A program made the position numbers and the translations under genes. The notes under the pieces are model-generated. The model did no database searches. It was not told the origin of the DNA and saw only the letters and a list, made by a program, of their open reading frames with translations. Of a stretch of 64,000 nucleotides of DNA, positions 24,975 to 33,584 are shown in pieces. The stretch covers positions 62,001 to 126,000 of the forward strand of contig CAJXQI010000009.1 in NCBI GenBank assembly GCA_913058395.1, given 5' to 3'. The stretch's first letter is position 1, and every line of letters begins with the position of its first letter. The stretch comes from an uncultured Colwellia sp. GTDB lineage: Bacteria > Pseudomonadota > Gammaproteobacteria > Enterobacterales > Alteromonadaceae.

Positions 24975-25160
24975 AACTACCTTAATTTAAACGAACTTTA
25001 TTATTTGCGGCTATAGTAAAGGAATTCTTTAACTTTTTATAACATCCGTTAAGAATAAAATGGACTCACCTTATTCCTTAGGGTAATTTAGAAAGATAAC
25101 AAAAATAGGACTCTAGCCACAGTAAAATTGCGCTACAGGTCAAATTTTGCGGGAGCAATT

Positions 25161-27956
25161 GTGAAAAAAAGCCCTAATGACGCAAAGCAATATCAAGCGA
25201 TAACGCTAACCAATGGTTTACGCGCATTATTGGTTCACAACCCAGAATCAAATAAGTCTGCCGCAGCCTTAGCGGTTAATGTTGGTCATTTTGATGACCC
25301 AAATCATCGTCAAGGGCTTGCTCACTTCCTCGAACACATGCTATTTTTGGGTACAGAAAAATACCCTGACGGTAGCGAATACCAGAAATTCATCAATGAA
25401 CATGGCGGCAGTAATAACGCATGGACTGCCACCGAGCATACCTGTTTTTTCTTTGACATTGGCCAGCAACACTTTGCAGCCGCAATTGAACGTTTTGGTG
25501 AGTTTTTTACTGCACCGTTACTTTCAGAGGAGTTTGTTAATAAAGAACGTAAAAATATTGACGCCGAATTTAAGCTAAAACTTAAAGACGATATTCGACG
25601 ACTTTATGACGTTCATAAAGAAACCATTAACCAAAACCACCCTTTTGCTAAATTTTCCGTGGGAAGTAGCGAAACATTAGCCGATAAAGCCGGTTATAAC
25701 TTACGTGACGAAGTGTGTGACTTTTTTCAAAATAATTATCAAGCTCATTTTATGACCTTGGTTTTGGAAGGACCACAGGCTATTGCGGAGTTGGAAAGTT
25801 TAGCAAAAATACATTTTTCCAAGATTAAATCAAATAGCGTTACTAAAGCTAAAATTGAGCAACCGCTTTATCATGCCGAACATCAAAAACAATGGATTAA
25901 AGTTCGCCCGGTTAAAAATGATCAACAGTTAATCATTAGCTTTGCTATGCCAAGTATTGACAAATTCTACCGCCACAAACCAGAGGCTATTCTTGCTTAT
26001 TTAATTGGTCATGAAGGTCCTGGCAGTATTTTATCATTACTTAAAAGCAAACAATGGGCATTAGCGCTAACCGCTGGCTCTGGAATAAACGGCTCTAACT
26101 TTAAAGATTTCAATATTAACATCTCACTATCTGAGTTAGGTGAGCAAAACACTAAATCCATTATCAATATTGTATTTTCTTATATTAAGTTATTGAAAAA
26201 CGCACCGTTGAATGAACAATATTACCGAGAGAAAAAAGCATTAGCAGAGTTATCATTTTCATATCAAGAAAAGCTTTCACCACTTGATTCAGCAAGTCAG
26301 CTTGTTATCAACATGCAGCATTACCCTGAGCAAGATTATATTTTCGGTGATTATGTTATGGAAGGTATGGATGAATCAGCATTTAACATCTTACTCAGCT
26401 ATATGGTGGCGACAAACCTTCGAATAATTACCGTTAGCCAACAATTTGACGAGCATAAAGAAAATAAAGTCAGTAAATGGTATCAAGTCCCCTACTCTGT
26501 TAGTGATATCCCTTCTGCTCAAATTGAAGAATGGCAGAACACACCTCATATTGAGCAGCTATTTTTACCAAACGAAAACGCCTATATTGTTGCACAACCA
26601 CAACTTATCGCTTATCAAGATAAAGATAACAACCCGTTAACTCCACCGATAAGTATTTGCCAACAAGATGGCTTATGCGTTTGGTTTAAACATGACACCA
26701 GTTTTAATACCCCAAAAGGTTACATATATATATCAATCGACTCACCAAAGGTAATAGAAAGCGCCAGTAATATTGCTATGACACGTTTGTTTATTGATCT
26801 TTATAGTGATGCAGTAGTTGAAGAACATTACGATGCCGAGTTAGCGGGTATTCACTATCACCTGTATTCTCATCAAGGTGGTATGACATTGCAGCTTTCC
26901 GGTATTAGTACTAAACAAGGACAATTATTACCACTATTACTTTCCAGTCTCCTTAACTGTGCGTTTTGTCAGGAAAAATTTGAGTTGCTCAAACAGCAAC
27001 TTATAAGCCACTGGAGAAATGCCGAAAGCAGTAAATCGATTTCACAGCTGTTCGCAACGCTTAGTGCAAGCATGCAACCGAAAAGCCCTAGCAGCCAAAC
27101 ATTAATTGCTTCACTAGAAAAAATCAGCTTTGATGGCTTTAAAGACTTTATTTCACAAATATTCGACCAAGTGGCAATAGACGTCTTAATTCATGGTAAT
27201 TGGCCAAAGAGTGCTGCAGAACAAATGATTAAAAGCATACAGCGAGAGTTTGGGCCACATTTATCGCAAGAAAGTATAGTGAAAATTCCTTGTGTGGATA
27301 TTCAGGAAAAGCAACAAATAACCATACCCATGTTATTGCCTGAACATGACCACGCTGCAGTACTTTATTATCCTATGCCCAATAAAGACTTAAGTTCAGT
27401 GGCATTAACCATGTTAACCAACCAGTTACTTTCTCCTATTTTTTTCCAGGAAATGCGCACTGAAAAACAATATGGTTATTTAGTTGGTGTTGGCTTCATT
27501 CCTATAAATCGCTACCCAGGTATTGCCTTTTATATCCAGTCACCTCATACCGACTCTTCAACACTAACATCTGCTATGAATGACTTTATTGGCAGAGCTG
27601 CGGATTATGTCAAAGCTTTACCAGAAGAGCACTGGCAACATCTGCAGTTTGGCCTTGCAAGCCAATTACAAGAAAAAGACACAAATTTAAGAATAAAAAG
27701 CCAACGATACTGGGCTGCTATTTGTAATAAAGAAGCTTCCTTCACACAAAAACATCAACTTATTGAAACCATAAAATCATTATCAATTGCCGATATAATT
27801 AACTTTATTCAGCAACACTTTCATGGTGCAATTACTGACGACCGCTTGTCATTATTAAGCTATGAAAACAATGACCAATTTGAAAGTATGGTGAAAAAAC
27901 TTCCCACTACCGACAATAGCGAATTATTGCTAAAAAAATGTCAAAGAAAATACTAA
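25161..27956 (+). CDS. M16 insulinase/pitrilysin-family zinc metalloprotease
   Basis: About 931 residues from a GTG at 25161, which has GGGAG six bases upstream; a TTG 33 bases earlier lacks a binding site. The inverted zinc motif HFLEH (GLAHFLEHMLFLGTEKYPDGSEY) is near residue 70, with the third ligand in the NIDAEFKLKLKDD segment about 75 residues later. The length and the YPDGSEYQKFINEHGGSNNAWT segment match the IDE/pitrilysin subgroup, which cuts small peptides inside a closed chamber. No signal peptide is seen, unlike E. coli PtrA, so it is probably cytosolic. It is monocistronic. Confidence 0.9.
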   Translation: MKKSPNDAKQYQAITLTNGLRALLVHNPESNKSAAALAVNVGHFDDPNHRQGLAHFLEHMLFLGTEKYPDGSEYQKFINEHGGSNNAWTATEHTCFFFDIGQQHFAAAIERFGEFFTAPLLSEEFVNKERKNIDAEFKLKLKDDIRRLYDVHKETINQNHPFAKFSVGSSETLADKAGYNLRDEVCDFFQNNYQAHFMTLVLEGPQAIAELESLAKIHFSKIKSNSVTKAKIEQPLYHAEHQKQWIKVRPVKNDQQLIISFAMPSIDKFYRHKPEAILAYLIGHEGPGSILSLLKSKQWALALTAGSGINGSNFKDFNINISLSELGEQNTKSIINIVFSYIKLLKNAPLNEQYYREKKALAELSFSYQEKLSPLDSASQLVINMQHYPEQDYIFGDYVMEGMDESAFNILLSYMVATNLRIITVSQQFDEHKENKVSKWYQVPYSVSDIPSAQIEEWQNTPHIEQLFLPNENAYIVAQPQLIAYQDKDNNPLTPPISICQQDGLCVWFKHDTSFNTPKGYIYISIDSPKVIESASNIAMTRLFIDLYSDAVVEEHYDAELAGIHYHLYSHQGGMTLQLSGISTKQGQLLPLLLSSLLNCAFCQEKFELLKQQLISHWRNAESSKSISQLFATLSASMQPKSPSSQTLIASLEKISFDGFKDFISQIFDQVAIDVLIHGNWPKSAAEQMIKSIQREFGPHLSQESIVKIPCVDIQEKQQITIPMLLPEHDHAAVLYYPMPNKDLSSVALTMLTNQLLSPIFFQEMRTEKQYGYLVGVGFIPINRYPGIAFYIQSPHTDSSTLTSAMNDFIGRAADYVKALPEEHWQHLQFGLASQLQEKDTNLRIKSQRYWAAICNKEASFTQKHQLIETIKSLSIADIINFIQQHFHGAITDDRLSLLSYENNDQFESMVKKLPTTDNSELLLKKCQRKY

Positions 27957-28147
27957 CCCTGCCGATATAATTATATGTGTTAAAAATCATTCACTTTATA
28001 TTGTTATAACTTAAATAACAGCAATGATTGACTTAATCACCCGCATCACATTTAATGGGGTGTGACGTCCAAAAAATAATAATATCAGGCATATCCATTA
28101 AGTTATTTTACCTAGGATATGGGCTTCACTACCATAAGGTTGTATTA

Positions 28148-31100
28148 GTGCATTTATTTTTTTTCAAACAAAGACTACTTTCCAAGTTTTCTATCTTCTG
28201 TACTTTTTTTGCATGTTCTATAGCTTTATCGCTTGCTATTCAAACTTACGCATTCGCCAATAACGTCAACCAAACGCCATTAAAATTTGAGCGCATTTCA
28301 ATCGCTGAAGGTTTATCACAAAGCTATGTTTACGATATTATTCAAGATGATAATGGCTTCATATGGATTGCGACACAAGATGGTTTAAATCGTTATGATG
28401 GCAAAAACTTTGTTTATTACCGCCATGATAGTACCAACAAGAATTCAATCGCTGACAATTTCATCCGTAAACTTTTTATCGATAATAAAAATGTTCTCTG
28501 GGTTGGCACTAATGAAGGCTTAAGTCGTTACAACAAATCATTAGATAATTTCGATAACTTTTACCACCAAGCCAATGACAGTAATTCGCTCAAAGACAAT
28601 GAGATTTGGGACATATATCAAAATAAACAAAGTACACTATTCGTATCAACGAAAGAAGGCATGCAAAAGTTTGATACTGAAAATGGTAACTTTACCCGTA
28701 TTCGCTTTCGTGGTTTTGAAAATGTACTAAAAGAAATTAAAACCATCTTTCAAGACGAAAAAGGCAATTACTGGTTAGGTACTTATGATCAAGGAATATT
28801 TTTAACCAACAGCACAATGTCTTCCGTTGTATCCTTAAACGATAACAACAAGTGGAACCTGCAGCTTAACGCAAGTGCCCTTTATGATTTAAAGTTTATT
28901 GATAATCAATATTGGCTCGGAACGAATAATGGCCTTTTTATTATTTCGCAAGATTACGAAGTTGTTAAGCACTACAGTGAGAGCAGTCAGGAAATCAACT
29001 TAAAACTACTATCAAATAAAGTTCGATCTATTGAACTACTTGATGACTCAGCAGTTTGGCTTGGGACACTGAACGGACTAAATAGCATTAATACTTTAAC
29101 CGGCGAAGTAAATGCCTATCAAAATGCTCAGCACAAAAATGCACTTTCCGATAATTTTATTTATAAAGTTTACAAAAGCCATGCTGGTAAAATGTGGTTA
29201 GGTACATCTGGAGGAGGCATCAATACATTTAATATACTGCAAATGTCATTAGTGCATGGGCTTTTTGAGTATAATAATGTAGGCCAAGCCATATACGCAT
29301 TTGCAGAAACGTCAGATAATACAGTCTGGTTCACAACAGAAAATGGGCAACTAAATAAATTAACACCTGAAGGTAAAGTTAACCAAGTTAATATTCTCAA
29401 CAACACTCCAATTTCTCATTTAATGGTAGATAACAAAAATAATTTATGGTTAAAAACCGAACAAAGCTCTTCTTCAGAAAATTTTAACCTTTTTTATTAT
29501 GACGTTAAAGAAGGGGTATTAAGTAAAAATAGGGAATGGGGGAAAGACGCCAAGCAATTAAATTCTAGTAACTCCATTTTACTTGAAAATAAAATATGGT
29601 TCATTGAACAAGAAGGTTTATTAAAAAGTTTTGATATAGAAACACAAGAATTTCACATTTTTGAGCAAGACACATCAATGAGATTTACATCTCTTACAAG
29701 TAGCATTAATAGTAATATTTGGCTTTCCACAATAGATAAACGCATTGTCACGTTCGATACTTTAAGCTTAAGCTTTTCTTCAAAAGAATATTCGATTGAA
29801 GATAACATTGATTATGGAAATTACACTAACATTGCAGTATCAGAAAATTGGATTTGGCTAGGTACAAGAGGTCAAGGTATTAGGCTTGTTAATAAACATA
29901 GTGCTGAAACAAAAATTTTTAATGAAGATGCAGGACTTTCAAATAACTTTATTTCTGACATAAAGTTAGATGCTAATGAAACCGCGTGGGTCTCTACAAA
30001 TAAAGGTATAAATGCAATATTACCAAACACGGAATTTGTAAAATCATTTAATATTGATTTTCAACTTTATGATAATGAATTTATCAGTGACAGTGGAATC
30101 ATTACAAAAAACGAAACCATATTTTTTGGCGGCTTAAATGGCTTTCATGCATTTTCACCTGATGAACTCCTAAAAATTAGTCAGAACCTTCCTAGACCAT
30201 ATTTAACGAATATTTTAGTCGCGAATAAAGAAATAGCTGCATCACAATTAACCGAAAATAATTTTAGTACTTCAAAAGTGCCTAATTATCTAAACTCTTT
30301 AGCGTTAGAACACAAGCAATCACCATTTAGTATTGAGTTTATCTCTCCCAACACTAAGCTCCCGAGCCACCTAAAATACCGTTATCGTTTATTAGGTCTA
30401 GAAGAGAATTGGATAGACGCTGGTAAAAATAACTTACGAGCGACATATACATATTTAAGTCCGGGTGAATATACCTTCGAAGTACAAGCTTATGATTTGC
30501 AAAACAGTCAAGAAAGCCAAATAAAAACTCTCGACATTACCATAATGCCGCCATGGTGGTTATCACGTAGTGCCATTTTATTTTATAGCCTAATCACCAT
30601 ATTGATTATTGGCTATATCCTGCAGCAAATGCGCCATAAAAGACTCTATCACTTACAAATAAAGCTAAGTGAAGAACGTTTGAAACTTTCTCTTTGGGGG
30701 AGCGGCGATGAAATGTGGGACTGGAATATTAAGAAAGGTAAGATATACCGCTCTAATATATGGGGCATTCTTGAATTTCCTCAAGATGGCAAGCGTAATG
30801 TTGGGGCTGATCAAACGAATATTCACTTACAGGATATCCCAAGAGTAAGGGAAGCACTAAACCAGCACTTTGAAGACAGCAGCCAACATTTTGAAGCAAC
30901 CTATCGCGTAAAAGACAAAGATGACAAATGGATTTGGGTGCTTGACCGAGGAAAAATTGTTGAGCGTGATGAAAAGAAAAAACCCACTCGAATGACTGGG
31001 ACATTAAAAGATATTAGCCAAATAAAGCGCGCAGATGAACGCCTAAAGCTATTCGCAAAATGTATTGAAAATATTTCCGATGCCATTGTTATTTATGATC

Positions 31101-32722
31101 GTCAATTTACCGTTGTCGATGTAAACAAAGCTTTTCAACGCATTACAGGAAAAACAAAGCAGCAAATGCGTGGCTCTCTATTAAAGTTTGAACAATACCC
31201 TGAAAGTTTTAATCAGAATGTTAAGAAGCACTTGATCACAAAGGGCAGTTGGCACGGTGAAATTGAAAGTATTCGCGACAATGGTGAGCTTTATTTAACT
31301 GACTTAAACATTGATATTATTAAAGATGAAACTGGCAATATTTCACATTTTGTTGGCGTCTTCTCGGATATCACTAAACGTAAGCAAACCGAGGCTGAAT
31401 TAAGAAAACTTGCTAACTCTGACACGCTAACAGGGTTACCTAATCGCTCATATTTCCAAGCCAACCAACAACGATTAGTGAATAATAAAATCCCCCATGC
31501 CTTATTGGTTTTTGATTTGGACAACTTTAAAAAAGTAAATGACTCTCTAGGTCATGAAGTCGGTGATGTCTTACTTTGTAAAGTTGCCGAGCGTATTAGA
31601 AGTCTAGGAAGAAATCAAGATAGTGTTTATCGACTAGGCGGGGATGAGTTTAGTTTGATTGTTGAAAACACTAACGATATCCATACCACTACGTCAATCG
31701 CAAAACAGGTATTAGACTCTATAGCGTTGCCACTTAAACTTAAAAGCCAAGAGATTGTGCTTTATAGTAGTATTGGTATTGTGCTTTACCCTGAAGATGG
31801 CATAAACCCACAGGAATTATTAAAAAACGCTGATACGGCAATGTATCACGCTAAAAACTCTGGTGGTAACAAGTATCAATTTTTCAGCGACTCAATGAAC
31901 AAAACAGCCGTCAAACGCTTACAAATTGAAAATCTTATTCGTCATGGATTAAAGGAAGATTTTTTCTCAGTCTTTTACCAACCTAAAATTGAAATTGCCA
32001 CAGGCAAAATTGCAGGTATGGAAGCACTTGTACGTTTTGAAACTCCTAGTAAGGGTATTATTAGCCCTGTTGTGTTTATCCCGGTATCTGAAGAGACAGG
32101 ACAAATTATTGATATTGGTGAAGTTGTACTTCGCAAAGCCTGTTTTGCTACCAAGAAATGGGTCGACGCTGGGTTATTCGAAGGACGCATCGCAGTTAAC
32201 TTATCAGCCGTGCAATTTACTCAGCCAAATTTAGTTGCCATGATAGCGAATGCATTAAAAGAAAGTGGCTTATCTGCTAAATATTTAGAGTTAGAAATAA
32301 CTGAAGGCACGGTAATGGACTCGCCACAAAAAGCCATAGATACCATGTTGCAAATTCGTGCTATGGGTATTCATTTATCCCTAGATGATTTTGGTACGGG
32401 TTATTCTTCACTTGCCTATTTAAAGAAATTTCCACTTAATACTTTAAAAATAGATAAGGCATTTGTCGATGATATTGAAACCTCAGAACAAGGTCGAAAT
32501 ATGGTGGCAACAATAGTCACTATTGCCCATAACCTTGGTATGCAAGTAGTAGCAGAAGGTGTTGAAACTAATCAGCAACTAAGCTTTTTATCTGGCCTTC
32601 GCTGTGAGCAACTACAAGGGTATTTATATAGTAAACCATTACCTGAAAATGACTTTCAAAAGTATTTACTGTCTTTTCAAATTACCAACAGATCAACCTC
32701 ATTCGGTAAAAACTCCATTTAA
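28148..32722 (+). CDS. propeller-sensor diguanylate cyclase/phosphodiesterase (Reg_prop-Y_Y_Y-PAS-GGDEF-EAL)
   Basis: About 1524 residues from a GTG with AAGG eight bases upstream. An ATG at 28055 would add 31 residues before the signal peptide. The order is signal peptide, periplasmic two-component-regulator propeller repeats (WIATQDGLNRYDG, LWVGTNEGLSRYN, VWLGTLNGLNSI, MWLGTSGGGINTF), Y_Y_Y domain (KYRYRLLGLEENWIDAG), one membrane helix (ILFYSLITILIIGYILQ), two PAS domains, then GGDEF (RLGGDEFSLIV, intact) and EAL (GMEALVRF, DDFGTGYSSLAYLK, EGVET, intact). It senses an extracytoplasmic ligand and makes or breaks cyclic di-GMP. A terminator follows. The ligand is unknown; in this family it is often a carbohydrate. 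Confidence 0.9.
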   Translation: MHLFFFKQRLLSKFSIFCTFFACSIALSLAIQTYAFANNVNQTPLKFERISIAEGLSQSYVYDIIQDDNGFIWIATQDGLNRYDGKNFVYYRHDSTNKNSIADNFIRKLFIDNKNVLWVGTNEGLSRYNKSLDNFDNFYHQANDSNSLKDNEIWDIYQNKQSTLFVSTKEGMQKFDTENGNFTRIRFRGFENVLKEIKTIFQDEKGNYWLGTYDQGIFLTNSTMSSVVSLNDNNKWNLQLNASALYDLKFIDNQYWLGTNNGLFIISQDYEVVKHYSESSQEINLKLLSNKVRSIELLDDSAVWLGTLNGLNSINTLTGEVNAYQNAQHKNALSDNFIYKVYKSHAGKMWLGTSGGGINTFNILQMSLVHGLFEYNNVGQAIYAFAETSDNTVWFTTENGQLNKLTPEGKVNQVNILNNTPISHLMVDNKNNLWLKTEQSSSSENFNLFYYDVKEGVLSKNREWGKDAKQLNSSNSILLENKIWFIEQEGLLKSFDIETQEFHIFEQDTSMRFTSLTSSINSNIWLSTIDKRIVTFDTLSLSFSSKEYSIEDNIDYGNYTNIAVSENWIWLGTRGQGIRLVNKHSAETKIFNEDAGLSNNFISDIKLDANETAWVSTNKGINAILPNTEFVKSFNIDFQLYDNEFISDSGIITKNETIFFGGLNGFHAFSPDELLKISQNLPRPYLTNILVANKEIAASQLTENNFSTSKVPNYLNSLALEHKQSPFSIEFISPNTKLPSHLKYRYRLLGLEENWIDAGKNNLRATYTYLSPGEYTFEVQAYDLQNSQESQIKTLDITIMPPWWLSRSAILFYSLITILIIGYILQQMRHKRLYHLQIKLSEERLKLSLWGSGDEMWDWNIKKGKIYRSNIWGILEFPQDGKRNVGADQTNIHLQDIPRVREALNQHFEDSSQHFEATYRVKDKDDKWIWVLDRGKIVERDEKKKPTRMTGTLKDISQIKRADERLKLFAKCIENISDAIVIYDRQFTVVDVNKAFQRITGKTKQQMRGSLLKFEQYPESFNQNVKKHLITKGSWHGEIESIRDNGELYLTDLNIDIIKDETGNISHFVGVFSDITKRKQTEAELRKLANSDTLTGLPNRSYFQANQQRLVNNKIPHALLVFDLDNFKKVNDSLGHEVGDVLLCKVAERIRSLGRNQDSVYRLGGDEFSLIVENTNDIHTTTSIAKQVLDSIALPLKLKSQEIVLYSSIGIVLYPEDGINPQELLKNADTAMYHAKNSGGNKYQFFSDSMNKTAVKRLQIENLIRHGLKEDFFSVFYQPKIEIATGKIAGMEALVRFETPSKGIISPVVFIPVSEETGQIIDIGEVVLRKACFATKKWVDAGLFEGRIAVNLSAVQFTQPNLVAMIANALKESGLSAKYLELEITEGTVMDSPQKAIDTMLQIRAMGIHLSLDDFGTGYSSLAYLKKFPLNTLKIDKAFVDDIETSEQGRNMVATIVTIAHNLGMQVVAEGVETNQQLSFLSGLRCEQLQGYLYSKPLPENDFQKYLLSFQITNRSTSFGKNSI

Positions 32723-32775: not shown

Positions 32776-32809
32776 TTCAAAGCCCTAAAAACAAGGGCTT
32801 TGAACTTTT
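32776..32809 (+). terminator. terminator of the GGDEF-EAL gene
   Basis: TTCAAAGCCCT and AGGGCTTTGAA pair over 11 bases around a short A-rich loop, followed by CTTTT. It is strong in stem and weak in T-run. It directly adjoins the sigma-54-like promoter of the next gene. Confidence 0.75.
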
Positions 32810-32824
32810 GGCACAAATTTAGCT
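32809..32824 (+). promoter_or_regulatory. sigma-54-type -24/-12 promoter
   Basis: TGGCAC is the perfect -24 element. The GC of the -12 element follows at exactly ten bases from the GG (TGGCAC-N7-GCT); the only departure from the TTGCW consensus is an A for the second T. Transcription would start about 30 bases before the ATG of the repeat protein at 32867. An upstream activator site was not identified. A sigma-70 reading of TTGGCA as -35 is possible but I see no good -10. Confidence 0.6.
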
Positions 32825-32866
32825 TATACCTTATTGAATTTAAAATCATTTTAATAAGGAAATAGC

Positions 32867-33148
32867 ATGCTTAGTTCATTAATTCTATCTTTAGTAATGT
32901 CAGCGACTCCGACTGAGGTAAACACGAATGACTTTAATATCGAAGAAGCAGGTACTCGTAAAGGCCAAGTTCGTATCGGCACTCGTAAAGGTCAAGTTCG
33001 CATCAATGAGCAAGAATTAGATATTACAGAAATTGGTACTCGTAAAGGCCAAGTTCGCATCGGCACTCGTAAAGGTCAGGTACGCATCAATGACCAAGAA
33101 TTAGATATTACAGAAATTGGTACTCGTAAAGGCCAAGTTCGCATCTAG
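32867..33148 (+). CDS. small protein built of GTRKGQVRI repeats
   Basis: 93 residues. AAGGA lies six bases before the ATG. A short hydrophobic N-terminus (SSLILSLVMSA) could be an export signal. From residue 29 the protein consists of GTRKGQVRI five times, in the pattern two repeats plus a ten-residue acidic spacer (NEQELDITEI, then NDQELDITEI), again two repeats plus spacer, then one repeat. The repeat is basic with alternating polar and hydrophobic residues and looks beta-forming. The stop TAG overlaps the ribosome binding site of the next tiny gene. I recognise no family. Possible roles are a secreted structural or adhesive peptide, a precursor cut into repeats, or an RNA-level element; none is shown. 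Confidence 0.75.
   Translation: MLSSLILSLVMSATPTEVNTNDFNIEEAGTRKGQVRIGTRKGQVRINEQELDITEIGTRKGQVRIGTRKGQVRINDQELDITEIGTRKGQVRI
32951..33145. repeat. 84-base direct repeats coding the GTRKGQVRI units
   Basis: Two near-identical 84-base units (32951-33034 and 33035-33118) plus a final 27-base partial unit. Each unit contains two copies of the 27-base motif and a 30-base spacer. The few differences are mostly silent (GGC/GGT, CAA/CAG, GTT/GTA), with one substitution of Glu by Asp in the spacer. In-frame expansion and contraction by recombination is likely. Confidence 0.9.
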
Positions 33149-33156
33149 GAGTCATT

Positions 33157-33261
33157 ATGCTTAATCTAATTAAATCTCTATTTGCTAATGAAGCAAAAGA
33201 AAATGCTATAGCGGCAAGCATCGAAATTAAAGAGATGCCAGCTAGCACATGGTGGAATTAG
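33157..33261 (+). CDS. 34-residue peptide coupled to the repeat protein
   Basis: The reading frame runs from an ATG at 33157 to a TAG at 33259-33261. AGGAG five bases upstream overlaps the stop codon of the repeat-protein gene, so translation is probably coupled. The peptide starts amphipathic (MLNLIKSLFANEAKE) and ends PASTWWN. It is too short for family recognition. The charged leader and short aromatic tail recall precursors of modified peptides, but no modifying enzyme is nearby. A stem-loop with T-run follows about 70 bases later. The coding call rests on the ribosome binding site and coupling only. Confidence 0.55.
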   Translation: MLNLIKSLFANEAKENAIAASIEIKEMPASTWWN

Positions 33262-33361: not shown

Positions 33362-33380
33362 ACAAAGGAAGGTTAGATGC

Positions 33381-33584
33381 CTAAGCTGAGAAAAGTAAAC
33401 AGTCAAAACCAAAGCGCTGATATGTCTTTACGCGTTTCTTCATACAAAACATTGGCCAGATCAATGGGCCAAATACCAAGCCAGCCGTTGCCCATCGCTT
33501 AGCACCTAAACCATTACTGATAGCCTGACAATAAAAAAACAATGAAAAAACAATAGCTAGTACTGCTAGAAAGAACAAACTCAC
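33381..33584 (-). CDS. small membrane protein, 67 aa
   Basis: The GTG start has AGG six bases upstream. One strong N-terminal membrane helix (SLFFLAVLAIVFSLFFYCQAIS) precedes a second, weaker one in GLGAKRWATAGLVFGPLIWPMFCMKKRVK. I believe short proteins with a GAKRWxxAGLxFGPLxWPMF segment recur in Alteromonadales, but I cannot name a family. A 41-codon frame with a good AAGGAAGG lies opposite at 33377-33502; I consider this strand the better candidate because of its hydrophobic pattern. The function is unknown. Confidence 0.55.
   Translation of the reverse strand: MSLFFLAVLAIVFSLFFYCQAISNGLGAKRWATAGLVFGPLIWPMFCMKKRVKTYQRFGFDCLLFSA

Follow-up and report, generated by a model that had tools for sequence, protein, structure and literature searches.

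A repeat propeptide gene beside a polymorphic cyclic-di-GMP sensor in Colwellia and related bacteria: a candidate peptide-signalling system

Known pherotype pairs in Gram-positive bacteria include AgrD-AgrC of the agr system, ComC-ComD and ComX-ComP. Like these pairs, the locus described here combines a private peptide with a candidate receptor that has a polymorphic outer domain and a conserved output half, and ligand and receptor appear to be exchanged by recombination. Unlike them, it is Gram-negative and would use a propeller GGDEF-EAL receptor rather than a histidine kinase, and it has a sigma-54-type promoter, a tandem-copy precursor in the present case, and no homology to the Gram-positive systems. 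With neither gene of its operon (gene 1, which encodes the repeats, and gene 2) matching Pfam or NCBIfam above cut-off, no homology to a known pheromone family was found.

Several other systems resemble parts of the locus. The Reg_prop/Y_Y_Y proteins of Bacteroides (PDB 4a2l and its relatives) share the periplasmic architecture of the sensor described below. They signal through histidine kinases, and their genes usually accompany polysaccharide loci; the present sensor differs in its GGDEF-EAL output and in its adjoining peptide gene. The leader-like N-terminus and repeated short cores of gene 1 recall multi-core RiPP precursors, but gene 1 has no sequence family match, and because no modification enzyme was found among the conserved neighbours of the locus, we have not filed it as a RiPP. 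Short, imperfectly strand-like repeats in an exported-type protein are also found in curli-type amyloids, whereas the unit sequence, the unit length and the existence of single-copy homologues do not fit curli, and curli export genes were not found among the conserved neighbours. The precursors of yeast alpha-factor and fission yeast P-factor are fungal multi-copy pheromone precursors, exported and with several copies of one short, species-specific peptide (PMC6342294); unlike them, the present system is bacterial, non-homologous and without known Kex2-type processing, and its receptor would not be G-protein-coupled.

We found nothing on the gene 1 locus in the open-access papers that we searched, and neither gene falls in a described Pfam or NCBIfam family. 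Together, the sequences are suggestive of a system for peptide signalling in marine Gram-negative bacteria that has so far gone undescribed. If this is correct, a species-private, ribosomally made Gram-negative peptide signal would feed directly into c-di-GMP, a ligand class could be proposed for the propeller (Reg_prop) sensors of these bacteria, and dozens of natural ligand/receptor pairs would be at hand for reading out recognition rules.

The operon and its promoter

The window, by which we mean the whole 64,000-nucleotide stretch analysed, contains the following features, given with the evidence for each.

28055..32722, plus strand: sensor gene, periplasmic Reg_prop propellers and Y_Y_Y followed by PAS-PAS-GGDEF-EAL, start codon uncertain (Pfam, synteny)
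28220..30604, plus strand: periplasmic part of the sensor, fast-evolving, proposed peptide receptor (PDB 4a2l match, divergence, co-variation)
32808..32825, plus strand: sigma-54-type promoter TTGGCACAAATTTAGCTT with GG-N10-GC spacing (conserved in relatives)
32867..33148, plus strand: gene 1, repeat propeptide (ORF translation, homologues)
32867..32911, plus strand: hydrophobic N-terminus MLSSLILSLVMSATP, conserved, likely a short export signal (conserved MLSSLILSLxMSxTP)
32951..33004, plus strand: GTRKGQVRI copies 1 and 2 (translation)
33005..33034, plus strand: acidic spacer NEQELDITEI (translation)
33035..33088, plus strand: GTRKGQVRI copies 3 and 4 (translation)
33089..33118, plus strand: acidic spacer NDQELDITEI (translation)
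33119..33145, plus strand: GTRKGQVRI copy 5 (translation)
33157..33261, plus strand: gene 2, encoding 34 aa with IEIKEMPASTWWN as a conserved end (profile matches, alignments)

Gene 1 has 93 codons and encodes a 93-aa product that begins with MLSSLILSLVMSATPTEVNTNDFNIEEA and continues with GTRKGQVRI copies in a 2-spacer-2-spacer-1 layout (residues 29-37, 38-46, 57-65, 66-74 and 85-93). The first-pass annotation had described five perfect copies filling two-thirds of the protein: the copies are indeed perfect, but they account for 45 of 93 residues (48%), and about 70% is reached only when the spacers are counted as well. It had also noted third-position changes that leave the protein unaltered, and the five copies do differ at five nucleotide positions, every one a synonymous third position. 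At the DNA level, the strongest tandem repeat that TRF reports in the window, by a wide margin, is this one, with a unit of 84 bp (96% match, score 362). A coding pattern for KGQVRI has five matches in the 4.39-Mb genome, all inside gene 1, and none in the reversed control; a second protein with the GTRKGQVRI motif elsewhere in the genome was thus rejected. As that annotation had supposed, the motif belongs to no family in Pfam or NCBIfam, where the best matches to gene 1 are below the curated cut-off and none is near it. Plasmid records gave no match to the locus, and a search of the locus for RNA families found none.

AlphaFold predicts no fold for gene 1 (mean pLDDT 41, from a shallow alignment of a repetitive sequence), a result that would be expected of a propeptide and equally of any repeat-rich sequence whose alignment is shallow. 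Homologues in family f6 (probably Shewanellaceae) carry ordinary-looking signal peptides such as MKKIINGLVASVAFACSFPVMASS, and with such signal-like N-termini the protein is predicted to be exported via Sec; against this, the N-terminus within the Colwellia group is very short for a Sec signal.

Three elements around the repeats had gone unremarked in the first reading: a second conserved ORF, the promoter and the sensor gene. Gene 1 is the first of two genes in an operon, with the sensor gene directly upstream and fadJ and fadI downstream on the other strand. The GG-N10-GC element ahead of it follows a TGGCAC-N5-TTGC-like pattern, and a TTGGCAC-N5-TNGCTT-like version stands in a similar place in all 49 Colwellia-group loci (49/49). 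Similar elements are found in f6, f15 and f20 and before the single-copy precursor genes described below, and the strict sigma-54 pattern occurs five times in the genome of the window vs twice in the reversed control. Because the element is conserved, we infer that the operon depends on RpoN; a sigma-70 scan upstream of gene 1 gave nothing convincing. Gene 2 starts eight bases past the stop of gene 1, and its product, MLNLIKSLFANEAKENAIAASIEIKEMPASTWWN, has no Pfam or NCBIfam match. The groups that bear arrays conserve it, whereas it did not turn up in the sampled single-copy genera; we can only guess that it helps in export or processing.

Purifying selection on a species-private repeat unit

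Homologues of gene 1 are present in all 16 other searched genomes of the genus (16/16), contrary to the refuting condition set in the first-pass annotation, a lack of homologues in close relatives. The gene 2 profile detects the gene in 85 genomes out of the 397 in the family, with named records that include Cognaticolwellia, Colwellia, Thalassotalea, Thalassomonas, Pseudocolwellia and Litorilituus. The locus thus occurs throughout the Colwellia group, and diverged versions, found by searching beside fadJ in the wider order, occur in several other families: f6 and f20 have units of their own, and in f15 a short precursor accompanies an ORF that resembles gene 2. In the sampled genomes of f2, f7, f9, f10, f14, f16, f18, f21 and f25, no sensor adjoined and no peptide array was seen. 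The related repeats and variable copy number that the first-pass annotation proposed looking for are both found, with homologous arrays ranging from 1 to 28 units between species.

The repeat unit is private to nearly every species and almost always uniform across the copies of one protein, and a few close species have an identical unit in common. Examples of such units are GTRKGQVRI, GTRRGQVRI, GTKRSQVRI, GTKRTQVRI, GTRPGTVRI, GTRKDQVRI, GKSHGKVRI, GDNRIRIQPA and SQKRRGSRI, those of f6 include AGHPYVKFKPFEI, GIPNVKLKPLEV and GSPHIRYTA, and those of f20 include RIQIRISPE and HIPIRFEPV. Comparison between copies in 43 arrays (249 copies) gives a mean pS of 0.37 and a mean pN of 0.0076, and spacer pN in the same arrays is 0.10. 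Since the copies have diverged synonymously, most cannot be recent duplicates, and purifying selection on the peptide must be strong, which agrees with the earlier suggestion of selection on the peptide. In the large f6 arrays, with up to 28 core copies, exact copies of the core were compared, and these differ in their codons alone. Hardly cationic units also exist in some f6 and f15 members (TAALPWVKVDGVN and IEDQVGL). In three f15 loci (L162-L164), the precursor ahead of gene 2 lacks a basic array, and one member ends in two copies of the acidic IEDQVGL, which shows that a cationic unit is not required.

Roughly a dozen related genera have, after the sensor orthologue, a signal-like precursor of approximately 45-65 aa (e.g. 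MLKAYAVALVLSTTAPVAADKQEGAQKAPVQKKEVATETQSYKPKTGGVRI) with just one unit of a similar kind, located at the very C-terminus. Given these single terminal units, the arrays look like an amplified C-terminal peptide, and the repeat array is probably an amplification of that kind; these single-copy counterparts support the multi-copy precursor put forward in the first reading. In the Thalassomonas-like genus g14, four loci (L062, L085, L234 and L235) have one C-terminal unit (GRRSVRI, GRGNRGVRI, GRRAVRI and GNRGSVKI are the units seen) in a protein that is otherwise repeat-free, with gene 2 still conserved. Gene 1 of g14 has either decayed or never undergone expansion.

Linkage and co-variation of the sensor and the peptide gene

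Reg_prop (4e-26), Y_Y_Y (8e-17), GGDEF (3.5e-43) and EAL (1.7e-64) all score above the Pfam cut-off in the sensor, which also contains PAS domains and RLGGDEF, EALVRF and DDFGTGYSS motifs that look intact. Its periplasmic part matches PDB 4a2l with an E-value of 3.9e-77 and so has the Reg_prop/Y_Y_Y fold known from solved Bacteroides structures. Among 47 loci examined for synteny, fadJ and fadI adjoin in 46 and the sensor in 42-43 (43/47 when counted as syntenic), the exceptions being contig ends, save for one locus (L095). In the genome with this locus (G309), the sensor orthologue lies approximately 1.1 Mb off and the peptide locus is kept; likewise, in genome G319 the sensor is on another contig and the peptide locus is kept. 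The relocated sensor of G309 (L202) is followed by a transposase-like gene, which hints at how the two became separated. Conversely, genome G078 of the same genus is without the peptide locus and has only sensor paralogues (33-41% identity).

A profile of the sensor periplasmic part scores highly in 83 of the 397 genomes, and 80 of these are among the 85 gene 2 carriers, although these counts are not phylogenetically independent. The remaining five carriers comprise two with a partial sensor gene, two fragmentary assemblies and one with a borderline gene 2 match, while two of the three sensor-only genomes turned out to carry a peptide gene overlooked by the profile. Low-scoring sensor orthologues were checked as well, and in 16/16 the sensor is followed by a small precursor together with a sigma-54 element. 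At four other loci (L169, L179, L183 and L184), nothing recognisable as a peptide gene lies near the sensor gene.

Within genera, the sensor periplasmic part diverges by 43% on average, compared to 10% for its cytoplasmic part, 12% for FadJ and 22% for pitrilysin. For the analysis of co-variation, we used 53 sequences (205 within-genus pairs), removed a clock composed of FadJ, FadI and the cytoplasmic part, and permuted species within genera. Motif difference is associated with divergence of the periplasmic part (partial r=0.56, p=0.0005), with the reservation that motif distances across unequal unit lengths come from hand alignment and that distance-based tests can be too liberal. The association persists when pitrilysin is removed too (r=0.44, p=0.0005). 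Of the controls, pitrilysin tends towards an association (r=0.35, p=0.07) and MoxR does not (r=0.17, p=0.21), and neither FadJ nor the cytoplasmic part of the sensor has a significant association with motif difference. In the genus of the window alone, the association is modest (r=0.21, p=0.02), and partial Mantel tests with 11 and 17 species were not significant. In a scan along the sensor, the signal comes mainly from residues ~131-830 and is absent from the output half.

The co-variation also has a recombinational counterpart. In the sister species Colwellia sp. MB02u-6 (L057) and MB3u-45 (L060), 300-base windows along 8.7 kb have 89-98% identity outside the periplasmic domain and 54-79% across it. 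MB02u-6 instead matches BRX10-3 (L058) at 94-97% within the periplasmic domain and at 74-88% elsewhere. This switch in identity indicates that the periplasmic domain was exchanged and that the peptide type goes with it: the peptide of L057 (INNEAFIIEEVGTRKNEVRIDTSRNEISI) resembles that of L058 (INNEAFIIEEVGTRRNDIRI...DTSSNEISI) and differs from that of L060. The flanks of the L057 peptide gene are closer to L060, and the peptide gene may have been co-transferred, or L060 may have changed instead. A second trio (L055, L226 and L225) displays a similar, less sharp mosaic pattern.

A proposed ligand and its alternatives

That the gene 1 peptide serves as ligand for the neighbouring c-di-GMP sensor is a reading to which we assign a probability of about 0.64. 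A sigma-54-controlled, exported and disordered precursor would carry tandem copies of a short basic peptide (here GTRKGQVRI), proteolysis would release the free peptide, and the peptide would bind the periplasmic double-propeller domain of the sensor encoded just upstream, whose GGDEF and EAL domains would then alter cyclic-di-GMP. Ligand and receptor would co-diversify into a private, pherotype-like pair in each species, and the signal could act between cells or on the producer itself. The exported-type precursor, the private unit, the polymorphic outer domain and the conserved output fit such a pair. The broader proposal of a widespread system in Alteromonadales-like Gammaproteobacteria, with sigma-54 propeptides (1- to 28-fold), a private peptide, a polymorphic propeller receptor that sets c-di-GMP, and modules exchanged by recombination, seems to us evenly poised.

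Co-variation, linkage and shared absence would be explained equally well if the repeats were a non-diffusible partner of the sensor, i.e., an exported multivalent subunit or tether on the propellers that sets activity or clustering. An array with as many as 28 units might well be multivalent, but the wide range of copy number between species (one to 28) and the position of single units at the very C-terminus, as a released peptide would need, make this reading unlikely. The units could also be antimicrobial or interference peptides, with the sensor serving in self-recognition or as a dosage monitor. RIRIKP, RKHVRVV and RVKIRI are cationic and amphipathic and alternate with acidic spacers, and private diversity would fit rivalry; yet no conserved immunity or transporter gene adjoins the locus and some f6 and f15 units are hardly cationic, and we consider an antimicrobial function a still slimmer prospect.

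The association between motif and sensor might instead stem from shared mutation or recombination hotspots or from an imperfect clock, with the peptide acting elsewhere. The physical proximity of the two genes and the pitrilysin trend point in this direction; however, the intervening cytoplasmic half of the sensor has no association, and sensor and peptide are kept when unlinked and are both missing in G078, which renders such an origin very improbable. We give the lowest weight to a structural, amyloid-like or adhesive surface repeat protein. Cyclic-di-GMP sensors often govern adhesion, and the repeats are short with a strand-like composition, but the species with a single unit speak against it, as may the absence of a predicted fold from a shallow alignment, and co-variation with the sensor periplasmic domain is not something it predicts by itself. 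The amyloid, adhesive or charge-patterned assembly roles floated in the first-pass annotation thus found no positive support.

Returning to the surroundings of the candidate ligand gene, its conserved neighbours are the sensor, fadJ, fadI, MoxR-type genes and pitrilysin. The last, a pitrilysin/insulinase-type peptidase (25128-27956 in the window), immediately precedes the sensor wherever the flank of a Colwellia-group locus is long enough, and it could have a role in peptide turnover or be a chance neighbour. Two tandem gene 2 copies follow the repeat gene at eight loci (L077, L078, L083, L087, L090, L094 and L096 of genus g2, and L190), where other loci have one. Between gene 2 and fadJ, a 67-aa hydrophobic frame (GLGAKRWATAGLVFGPLIWPMFCMKKR) runs on the minus strand (33381-33584); a third small ORF at 33378 was rejected, as it lies opposite this frame. 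Antisense traces of the 67-aa frame are present in many related loci, and it is therefore probably a real small membrane protein.
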